Shown here: in pieces, positions 62,029 to 64,000 of the stretch
Position numbering within the stretch: the first letter of the stretch is position 1
Layout of the letters: the number at the start of each line of letters is the position of its first letter
Position numbers and translations under genes: made by a program
Notes under the pieces: generated by a model
What the model saw: the letters and a program-made list of their open reading frames with translations, nothing else
Told to the model about the DNA's origin: nothing
Databases searched by the model: none
Source of the DNA: Albidovulum sediminicola
GTDB lineage: Bacteria; Pseudomonadota; Alphaproteobacteria; Rhodobacterales; Rhodobacteraceae
Assembly: GCF_025751575.1 (NCBI RefSeq)
Contig: NZ_JAOWLA010000004.1
Coordinates: forward strand, 62,001-126,000
Length of the DNA: 64,000 nt
Direction of reading: 5' to 3'

Positions 62029-62487
62029 ATGAAGGGTCTGAAGAAGCAGCGCCGCATCCAGATCATCGTCCTGGCCGTTCTGGCCATGGCGGGGGCGCTG
62101 GCCGCATTCAAGTTCGCGATGCCGGACGCGCTCCAGTATTTCCGCTCTCCGACCGAGGTGATCGCGAGCCCGCCCTCGGCGTCGGAGACGTTCCGCATCG
62201 GCGGGCTGGTCGAGGACGGCAGCCTGGTCCGCGGCGAGGGGGCGGAGATCACGTTCCGCGTGACGGACGGCAACGGCGTGGTGCCGGTCAGCTATACCGG
62301 CCTTCTCCCCGACCTGTTCGGCGAGGGCGAGGGCGTGGTGGCGACCGGCAAGCTTGTCGGCGGGACCTTCGAGGCGAACGAGATCCTGGCCAAGCACGAC
62401 GAAACCTACATGCCCAAGGAAGTCATCGACGCGCTCAAGGAACAGGGCGTCTATGTCGAACCGGACGCTGGCGCAGCGACGAATTAA
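62029..62487 (+). CDS. ccmE: Cytochrome c maturation haem chaperone CcmE
   Basis: A 152-residue periplasmic haem chaperone anchored by one N-terminal transmembrane helix (residues about 10-28, IQIIVLAVLAMAGALAAF). The haem-binding His123 and Tyr127 are in AKHDETYMPKEV, and the OB-fold starts FRIGGLVEDGSLVRG. It carries haem to the cytochrome c lyase CcmFH. The other ccm genes are absent from the window, although in Rhodobacterales ccmE is often apart from the rest. Confidence 0.95.
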   Translation: MKGLKKQRRIQIIVLAVLAMAGALAAFKFAMPDALQYFRSPTEVIASPPSASETFRIGGLVEDGSLVRGEGAEITFRVTDGNGVVPVSYTGLLPDLFGEGEGVVATGKLVGGTFEANEILAKHDETYMPKEVIDALKEQGVYVEPDAGAATN

Positions 62488-62533
62488 CGAATTCTGAGGA
62501 CCCTTCCCGGACGCGCCAGCCCCGGGAGGTTCC

Positions 62534-63145
62534 ATGCCCAGCGTCGAAGACATTGCCCGAGAGATTGCCGCCCGCGAGGGAGGCTATGTGAACGACCCGG
62601 ACGATCCGGGCGGCGCCACCAATCACGGCGTCACGCTGGCCACGATGCGCAGGCTCGGCATCGACCTGGATGGCGACGGGCGGGTGGGGGCCTCTGACGT
62701 CAAGCGCCTGACGCGGGCGCGGGCCGAACAGATCTTTGTCGAGGAGTATTTCCGCAAGCCCGGGCTCGGCCTTTTGCCGCAGGCCGTGCAGGCCAGCGTC
62801 TTCGACATGTATGTGAACGCGGGGGCAGAGGCCGTGCGCCTGCTCCAGCGGCTCTTGAACGACATGGGCTATGCGGTTGCGGTGGACGGGGTCATCGGGC
62901 CGCAGACGGTGGCGGCGGCCATCGCGGCGGCAGAGCGCGCGCCGGATCTTTTCGCCGACGCCTACGGGATCGCCCGGCGCGACTATTACTACGCGCTCGC
63001 TGACCGCAGGCCTGCCAGCCGCAAGTTCGCCCGCCGCCGCGACGGCGGAAAGGGCGGCTGGATTCTCAGGGCCGAGGAATTCATCTCCCCCCGCTTTCAC
63101 CTCAGCGCGGCAGAGCATCGGGAAAGGATCGCGGCATGGGCCTGA
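62534..63145 (+). CDS. GTA/phage-type endolysin (GH108 N-acetylmuramidase)
   Basis: A 203-residue lysozyme-like protein of the GH108 type. The catalytic Glu15 is in AREGGYVNDPDDPGGATNHGVT, followed by VFDMYVNAGAEAVRLLQRLLND and a C-terminal peptidoglycan-binding part (DGVIGPQTVAAAIAAAE). There is no signal peptide, so it needs a holin to reach the wall. Its stop overlaps the start of the holin gene by 10 bases. The same pair serves gene-transfer-agent release in Rhodobacter capsulatus, where the lysis genes sit away from the main GTA cluster. Confidence 0.87.
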   Translation: MPSVEDIAREIAAREGGYVNDPDDPGGATNHGVTLATMRRLGIDLDGDGRVGASDVKRLTRARAEQIFVEEYFRKPGLGLLPQAVQASVFDMYVNAGAEAVRLLQRLLNDMGYAVAVDGVIGPQTVAAAIAAAERAPDLFADAYGIARRDYYYALADRRPASRKFARRRDGGKGGWILRAEEFISPRFHLSAAEHRERIAAWA

Positions 63146-63639
63146 TCTCTCGCATCTTCGGGGCGCCGACGGCGACCACGGCGCTGGGGCAGGCGGTCGT
63201 GGAGGTCGCGGGCGCCTTCACCCCCAACGCCACCCGCCGGTTGGAGACCGCACAGGCCGCCTACCTGGCCGCGCTGGACGAATTCGGGGCGGAGTTCCAG
63301 TACCTCAGGCCCGGGCGCTTCGACCGGTTGGTCAACGGCCTGAACCGGCTGCCCCGGCCGATGCTGGCCTTCGGAACGCTTGGCCTTTTCATCTACGCGA
63401 TGATCGACCCGGTCCATTTCGCCCAGCGGATGGTCGGGCTGAACTACGTCCCCGAGCCGCTCTGGTGGCTGTTGGCGGCCATCGTCGGGTTCTACTTTGG
63501 TGCACGCGAGGCGCATTATTTCCGCACCCGGGCAGACGCGCTGCCCGCCAGCGAGGGCCAGCCCGTTGCGACCGCGCCCGCCCCTGCCCGCAATCCCGCG
63601 CTTGAGGAATGGCGGCACGCGCGGGGGCGCGACCGCTAG
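63136..63639 (+). CDS. Holin, GTA_holin_3TM type
   Basis: A 167-residue membrane protein resembling the holin of three transmembrane segments used for gene-transfer-agent release. After GLISRIFGAPTATTALGQAV and an amphipathic helix come two clear transmembrane segments, PMLAFGTLGLFIYAMI (about residues 76-91) and WWLLAAIVGFYFGAR (about 112-126); the third segment is weak. The ATG lies 10 bases inside the endolysin gene, so the two are coupled. The tail is Pro/Ala-rich and basic. Confidence 0.83.
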   Translation: MGLISRIFGAPTATTALGQAVVEVAGAFTPNATRRLETAQAAYLAALDEFGAEFQYLRPGRFDRLVNGLNRLPRPMLAFGTLGLFIYAMIDPVHFAQRMVGLNYVPEPLWWLLAAIVGFYFGAREAHYFRTRADALPASEGQPVATAPAPARNPALEEWRHARGRDR

Positions 63640-63681
63640 CGCCGGTTGCATGGCGCCGGATTATCGCAGTAGCTTCCGGCC

Positions 63682-64000
63682 ATGTCTTTCAGATTGTTGA
63701 TTCTCTTCTTCTCCGTCGCCGCGTTCGCCGGTTCCGTGCTTTGGGTCGGACCGGCCGTCAAGACCGCGACGCTCGTTCCGATGGGCCTGGTCCTTGTTGC
63801 CCTGATCTGGGTGGTCGCGGGTCTCTTTACACCACGGCGGGACTGGATCCTGGTCGACGGATCGAACGTGCTTTACTGGCGCAATGACACGCCCGATCTC
63901 GCCACCGTGCGGCTGGTGGTGGGGGAACTGCTGCGCCGGGATCTGACGCCGGTCGTCTGGTTCGACGCGAATGCGGGCTATCTGGTGGCCGGGCGCTACC
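63682..64000 (+). CDS. Membrane-anchored NYN/PIN-like nuclease domain protein, 5' part
   Basis: The first 106 codons of a gene that runs off the window. Two transmembrane segments at the N-terminus (SFRLLILFFSVAAFAGSVLW and PMGLVLVALIWVVAGLF) are followed by RRDWILVDGSNVLYWRND, the start of a Zc3h12a-like NYN ribonuclease domain; the Asp in ILVDGSNV is the first catalytic acid. The remaining acidic residues lie outside the window, so activity cannot be judged. It is 42 bases after the holin gene. Confidence 0.75.
   Translation, partial: MSFRLLILFFSVAAFAGSVLWVGPAVKTATLVPMGLVLVALIWVVAGLFTPRRDWILVDGSNVLYWRNDTPDLATVRLVVGELLRRDLTPVVWFDANAGYLVAGRY

Follow-up and report, generated by a model that had tools for sequence, protein, structure and literature searches.

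The endolysin-holin pair and its chromosomal context

Two overlapping open reading frames were found on the forward strand of the window, the whole 64,000-nucleotide stretch of Albidovulum sediminicola DNA that was analysed. The first frame (62534..63145) starts with ATG and encodes an endolysin of 203 amino acids, a GH108 N-acetylmuramidase with a PG_binding_3 domain. The second frame (63136..63639), also starting with ATG, encodes a holin of 167 amino acids belonging to the GTA_holin_3TM family. The 10-base overlap between the two (63136..63145), pointed out in the initial annotation, was confirmed by the coordinates of both frames. It was exactly 10 bases long in 75 of the 77 loci with a callable holin frame (the window counted in), and such constancy indicates that the arrangement of the pair is not due to chance.

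The product of the first frame matched the Pfam families Glyco_hydro_108 (93 bits) and PG_binding_3 (76 bits), as well as the NCBIfam equivalog model NF040573 'holin-associated N-acetylmuramidase' (352 bits, with a cut-off of 240). Its N-terminus was not hydrophobic, the best mean among 15-residue windows starting in the first 40 residues being 0.39, so the description of a GH108 endolysin devoid of a signal peptide holds. The AlphaFold2 model of the protein was confident (mean pLDDT of 93). Six PDB sequences matched the endolysin, with the best matches, 7dnp and 2nr7, named secretion activator proteins.

The 167-amino-acid protein was assigned to Pfam PF11351 (GTA_holin_3TM) with 99 bits at a cut-off of 24.8. 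Its structural model, of low overall confidence (pTM 0.37), contained long helices at residues 73-90 and 107-132 and further N-terminal helices. The hydropathy analysis revealed one segment above the strict threshold and two weaker ones, and among 67 holins one strong segment was present in 34, two in 23 and none in 10. Because hydropathy gives one, two or no strong segments, three transmembrane segments are not asserted here, '3TM' being the name of the family. The holin proposed earlier thus retains its family, whereas only one of its three supposed segments passed the strict threshold. The pair is single-copy in the 4.13-Mb genome assembled in 70 contigs; the sole other DNA match was 26 bases long.

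The pair is preceded by the ccmE gene (62029..62487, forward strand), recognized by its reading frame, a profile match and synteny, and presumed to be the origin of read-through transcription. The other upstream neighbours were of the glutamate racemase, POR, EamA and LigT types, and downstream a gene with a weak NYN match, MazG and two M20 peptidase genes were located. All neighbouring genes examined were host genes, in line with the reported lack of phage genes nearby. The gene after the holin (L035:1683-2264, starting at 63682 of the window) encodes a protein with a hydrophobic N-terminus as judged by eye, and its match to the NYN ribonuclease family reached 27.7 bits at a cut-off of 23.

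Among 80 named loci, ccmE was located no more than 200 nt upstream of the endolysin gene in 69 and anywhere in the locus in 74, and a glutamate racemase gene was present upstream on the same strand in 72. The holin was found by tblastn in 78 of these loci and the order ccmE-endolysin-holin was kept. The NF040573 model matched 340 of 394 family genomes (327 above the cut-off, 54 without a match). In the class, 52 of 289 genomes had a match, with only six above the cut-off, four of which came from the same family. The pair is therefore a chromosomal locus located downstream of ccmE across the Rhodobacteraceae. Full-length lysins above the NF040573 cut-off were also noticed in another alphaproteobacterial family (f82), in genomes G588 (L143) and G474 (L144), and their leaders were left out of the leader analyses.

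The initial annotation had proposed a search of the rest of the genome for a structural cluster of a gene transfer agent (GTA), and such an RcGTA-like head-tail cluster was found on another contig. A GTA_TIM match of 489 bits was detected on contig C66, away from the lysis pair. The co-directional families around it comprised, on the head side, large terminase, portal, prohead protease, capsid, head-tail connector (21.8 bits, barely above the cut-off of 21.2) and head completion, and on the tail side, tail completion, tail tube, GTA-gp10, DUF2460, baseplate hub, NlpC/P60 and the GTA_TIM/Rcc01698-like protein. The tape measure protein of the cluster matched the NCBIfam equivalog 'RcGTA-type gene transfer agent tail tape measure protein' with 343 bits (cut-off 220). 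For the 105-amino-acid frame in the first, small-terminase position (L034:4860-5174), no family was matched. A near-complete CtrA-type site, TTAAT-N6-TTAAC, was observed upstream of the structural cluster (L034:4671-4686), whereas CtrA binding to the RcGTA promoter of Rhodobacter capsulatus was undetected according to passages of PMC6363796.

A gafA-like gene was sought via the location published for gafA, beside lipA (passages of PMC6363796). A gene for a 379-amino-acid protein with HTH and DUF6456 domains was identified 2.6 kb upstream of lipA, not directly adjoining it (contig C3 of this genome, G000; L139:3022-4161). Its position, length and domains suggest that it encodes GafA. The sequence TTAAC-N6-GTAAG is located 75 nt before the start codon of this gene; the R. 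capsulatus gafA site is TTAAC-N6-GTAAC, described in the same source as lying usually 65-71 bases before the start codon. Since both the head-tail cluster and the gafA-like gene are present, the strain has the parts of an RcGTA system and may form GTA particles.

Predicted promoter elements and a predicted hairpin in the leader

The TTAAC motif at 62484..62488 (forward strand), a putative CtrA half-site conserved in the aligned leaders, overlaps the ccmE stop codon. A forward TTAAC was detected upstream of the endolysin start within 110 bp in 70 of 81 leaders and within 70 bp in 66, with 11 leaders lacking it, and on either strand the motif was found in 73 of 81 leaders in comparison with about 8 in letter shuffles. 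The alignment of 65 leaders on TTAAC revealed a weak second half 6 bases upstream, as well as an A at position 17 in 55 leaders and a T at position 21 in 56, both being present in 52 and one or both missing in 13. A17 and T21 are as far apart as the two bases that are best conserved in a -10 element. The predicted -10-like element of the window (nAnnnT, 62499..62504, forward strand), separated from TTAAC by a fixed spacing, agrees with TATAAT only at these A and T bases. In the second set of 27 loci (29 loci, from which two were removed because their leaders duplicated leaders of the first set, near-identical ones being kept), 19 had TTAAC at 35-66 nt and 15 had the A/T pair.

The scan of the window for TTAAC-N6-TTAAC with up to one mismatch gave no hit, and for this reason only a half-site is claimed here. 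A sigma-70 consensus scan of the region 62300-63750 revealed nothing at the leader. In eight Paracoccus loci (L056, L057, L061, L062, L063, L075, L088 and L110), a complete TTAAC-N6-TTAAC was observed before the endolysin gene in place of the half-site.

Transcription is predicted to start at about 62511, 7 bases after T21. In the leader of the gafA-like gene, A and T were noticed by eye at the same spacing as in the -10-like element of the lysis leader. For gafA of R. capsulatus, the start reported from RNA-seq in passages of PMC6363796 falls at the CtrA site, some 87 bp upstream, which does not fit the position about 28 bases downstream expected from the A/T spacing. CtrA half-sites occur in the R. 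capsulatus lysis promoter (passages of PMC9638019), which is also bound by GafA (passages of PMC6363796). Of the CtrA/GafA-controlled promoter suggested for the pair by the initial annotation, the putative CtrA half-site and the gafA-like gene near lipA were identified, while control by GafA is a prediction.

A stem-loop was predicted at 62498..62533 (forward strand) by folding, shuffles and a swap test, with the 5' arm overlapping the -10-like element and the 3' arm containing the ribosome-binding site. The Shine-Dalgarno-like sequence GGGAGG (62524..62529, forward strand) is paired in the predicted hairpin. In the window leader alone, the effect was moderate (dinucleotide z of -2.1, with 6 of 200 shuffles equally stable). 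The comparison of fold stability with shuffles gave a mean z of -2.66 in 80 leaders, 41% of them below -3, whereas a control of 400 ORF starts, called mechanically in these loci, had a mean z of -0.16 with 3% below -3. At other gene starts, mean z values were +0.26 for the holin gene, +0.12 for ccmE, -0.38 for the racemase gene and -0.35 for iorA. The second set of 27 loci gave a mean z of -2.50, with 10 leaders below -3. The strength of the hairpin varied, 39 of 81 leaders falling short of a z of -2, and the dinucleotide z ranged from -1.5 to -5.9 in 16 of the 81 leaders, which were chosen as clear- or typical-looking hairpins.

In 99 of 100 leaders, the stretch from the -10-like element to the start codon can form four or more pairs that involve its final 22 nt. 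The best Shine-Dalgarno-like hexamer was mostly paired in 52 of 81 leaders in comparison with 25% of 380 control starts. In 43 of 81 leaders the pairing ended 0-2 nt short of the start codon, and in 18 its last base lay inside that codon.

When the 5' and 3' pieces were swapped among 100 TTAAC-bearing leaders, the native combinations folded at -17.92 kcal/mol and the swapped ones at -11.71 kcal/mol (z of -20.9, kinship ignored), and the same test on all 130 leaders gave a z of -25.0. At three other places in the same loci, values of -2.1, -1.0 and +2.8 were obtained. The native fold was also lower in 89 of 100 leaders when pieces were swapped against the three nearest relatives. In only 16 of 100 leaders did the own 3' part rank within the top 5% of partners for the 5' part (median rank of 12%), which probably reflects the ability of some GC-rich arms to pair widely. 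These data indicate that the predicted hairpin, which pairs the Shine-Dalgarno sequence, is kept by compensatory change while its letters vary. The Rfam search of the region 62300-62700 gave no match up to an E value of 1.

A fail-safe model and alternative explanations

It is likely that the locus is an RcGTA-type lysis cassette, set apart from the head-tail cluster and switched by CtrA and GafA, whose leader is built as a fail-safe; the start site, the effect on translation and the production of particles are predicted parts of this reading. The conserved hairpin before the pair probably keeps the cell from accidental bursting. According to the model, CtrA and GafA would switch the cassette on late in particle production, the holin would open the inner membrane and the muramidase would then cut the wall, freeing the particles; these lytic steps are known for R. 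capsulatus and are expected here from the families of the two proteins. Read-through RNA coming from ccmE would keep the whole hairpin and hide the ribosome-binding site of the endolysin gene, so no lysin would be made. RNA initiated at the cassette's own promoter would begin near the hairpin loop and be translatable, as it would lack most of the 5' arm, 77% of which on average precedes the predicted start. The predicted openness of the ribosome site after cutting at the predicted start rose from 0.23 to 0.47 and was higher in 93 of 100 leaders, any loss of the arm necessarily raising this value. The fail-safe model implies that the hairpin should weaken where ccmE is not directly upstream, and this was observed: leaders without ccmE within 200 nt had a mean z of -1.23 (n = 23) versus -2.76 for the others (n = 105; p = 3e-4), and a shorter gap to ccmE was associated with a stronger hairpin (rho = 0.32, p = 7e-4), kinship being ignored in both comparisons.

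Instead of a translational hairpin, the inverted repeat could alternatively be an operator in the DNA, bound by GafA or a different dimer, or the terminator of ccmE. GafA has been found to be dimeric in solution (passages of PMC9638019) and binds the R. capsulatus lysis promoter, as noted above. However, 99 distinct 5' parts were counted among 100 leaders, which makes a fixed operator sequence unlikely, and a terminator is unlikely because only 1 of 100 had five or more T among the 8 bases that follow the stem. The pairing up to or into the start codon described above also argues against both functions. Of the two strands, the mRNA strand gave the better fold in 58 of 81 leaders (p = 4e-4), although random windows lean likewise. 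An operator or terminator is on balance an unlikely explanation of the repeat. As to the genes themselves, their reading as leftover lysis genes of a decayed prophage, without a function today, draws on the frequency of GH108 endolysins in phages, 516 of 50,697 phage records having a match, and on Methylobacterium nodulans prophages, in which rcc00555 homologues of 38-45% identity lie beside RcGTA-like head-tail genes (passages of PMC11409702). Because of these two observations, a phage origin of the pair long ago is likely. None of the 516 phage matches, however, reached 60% identity (the highest value among the matches listed being about 42%) or covered 80% of the query, and no phage holin match was obtained at an E value of 0.01 in the same phage collection. 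The place beside ccmE is constant (69 of 80 named loci), and the length, the overlap and the leader are conserved. The divergence per site between loci, which were picked for endolysin similarity, was 0.30 for the endolysin gene, 0.29 for iorA and 0.39 for ccmE. Endolysin distances showed a low to moderate correlation with those of neighbouring genes (Spearman 0.14 to 0.41), which is not used for or against vertical descent, given the selection of the 80 loci by endolysin similarity. The prophage-remnant reading is contradicted by synteny and conservation and appears highly improbable. With a head-tail cluster and a gafA-like gene in the genome, host genes around the pair and no degraded prophage, the identification of a GTA lysis cassette made in the initial annotation is supported.

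The third alternative concerns the tie of the cassette to GTA particles. GTA_TIM was unmatched in 48 of 394 family genomes. Lysin and GTA_TIM matches occurred together in 318 of these genomes, lysin only in 22, GTA_TIM only in 28 and neither in 26 (Fisher p = 3e-13, kinship ignored). With the lysin counted above its cut-off, the respective numbers were 307, 20, 39 and 28 (p = 2e-12), and with a stricter GTA_TIM limit as well, 290, 37, 37 and 30 (p = 2e-9), kinship again being ignored. GTA_TIM is an imperfect marker of GTA, as several matches per genome occur in some genomes. The tie of the lysin to particles is not absolute, since 20 genomes (37 at the stricter GTA_TIM threshold) have a lysin above the cut-off while lacking a GTA_TIM match. 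A capsid match to the GTA of the present genome was found in 5 of the 20, two of them broken or partial (G036 and G114), and the tape and g12 families were found in one (G071). In the remaining 15 lysin genomes (G028, G030, G076, G095, G123, G141, G180, G203, G210, G212, G240, G249, G264, G376 and G390), GTA_TIM, capsid, tape and g12 were all unmatched; G123 and G141 are assembled as single contigs. Four GTA_TIM-positive genomes were used as controls; g12 was detected in all of them, and in G003 the tape was detected only below the cut-off.

A DUF6456 (gafA-type) gene was present in 18 of the 20 genomes and in 14 of those 15 (all but G376), in comparison with 6 of 26 genomes lacking both lysin and GTA_TIM (18/20 versus 6/26, p = 6e-6), and all 20 GTA_TIM- and lysin-positive comparison genomes carried it. 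Within the 20, the lysin frame was intact in 18 (13 of the 15), ccmE was adjacent in 18, the holin was found in 19, TTAAC was kept in 16 and the A/T pair in 13, and the mean hairpin z was -2.18. As far as the genomes can tell, the activator and the lysis pair tend to stay together after the loss of particle genes. This could mean that gafA and the pair together constitute a programmed-lysis module that belongs to the host and also works without GTA particles, for example in the release of DNA, vesicles or nutrients. The same picture would arise, without any new role, from a lag after recent loss of the cluster. Moreover, several of these assemblies are fragmented or incomplete, some of the 26 are likewise incomplete, the lysin of G390 has an early stop and that of G095 is cut by a contig end. 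A divergent capsid would escape the search, the tape model fell below the cut-off in a GTA_TIM-positive control, and DUF6456 is a presumed mark of gafA. Such a host-owned role is a possibility of rather low probability. In its extended form, GafA with the hairpin-guarded pair would be a self-standing lysis module owned by the host, with an RNA lock resembling that of T4 lysozyme, active without GTA particles in about a dozen genera and serving GTA release in most Rhodobacteraceae, which we consider a tentative proposal that is doubtful at present. If gafA and the lysis pair are kept in genomes devoid of particle genes, this would be relevant to the question of why GTA-linked lysis persists. 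The GTA lysis cassette with a fail-safe leader remains the preferred interpretation of the locus.

Comparison with known lysis systems

The pair probably corresponds to rcc00555/rcc00556 of R. capsulatus, to which it was matched by family and layout, none of the 80 named loci bearing the name of that species. As in A. sediminicola, the endolysin (rcc00555) and holin (rcc00556) genes of R. capsulatus both lie apart from the head-tail cluster (passages of PMC3423380, PMC6363796 and PMC9638019), and the two species are further alike in having a GTA and a gafA-like gene in the same genome and a CtrA half-site in the leader. The disruption of rcc00555 in R. capsulatus lowered transfer and left particles trapped in the cells (passages of PMC3423380, citing Hynes 2012). 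In contrast, no mention of a leader hairpin was found in the published passages on the RcGTA lysis genes. An open-literature search revealed no hairpin before a GTA endolysin among the papers listed, and the word 'hairpin' is absent from the main text of PMC9638019. The cassette itself is thus of an already known type, and the hairpin-guarded promoter is the part not met in the literature search.

The GTA of Caulobacter crescentus is related and has a GafA-related activator, GafYZ, but differs in its lysis, since no holin-endolysin was found and lysis proceeds through LypABC, as described in passages of PMC13236601.

GTA control includes the question of how a lethal lysis pair located beside a housekeeping gene is silenced and fires in GTA producers only. 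To this question, an RNA lock that is conserved and has its promoter placed over the 5' arm would be a simple and testable answer. A documented precedent is the lysozyme gene e of phage T4, in which the ribosome site of a lysis gene is hidden by a hairpin in long transcripts, and late promoters over the 5' arm give rise to transcripts that escape it (passages of PMC3014915). The genes and promoters of the two systems are unrelated, and the upstream transcript in A. sediminicola comes from a host gene, ccmE, with the function of the hairpin being predicted. If true, the arrangement would parallel that of phage T4 in a domesticated element.
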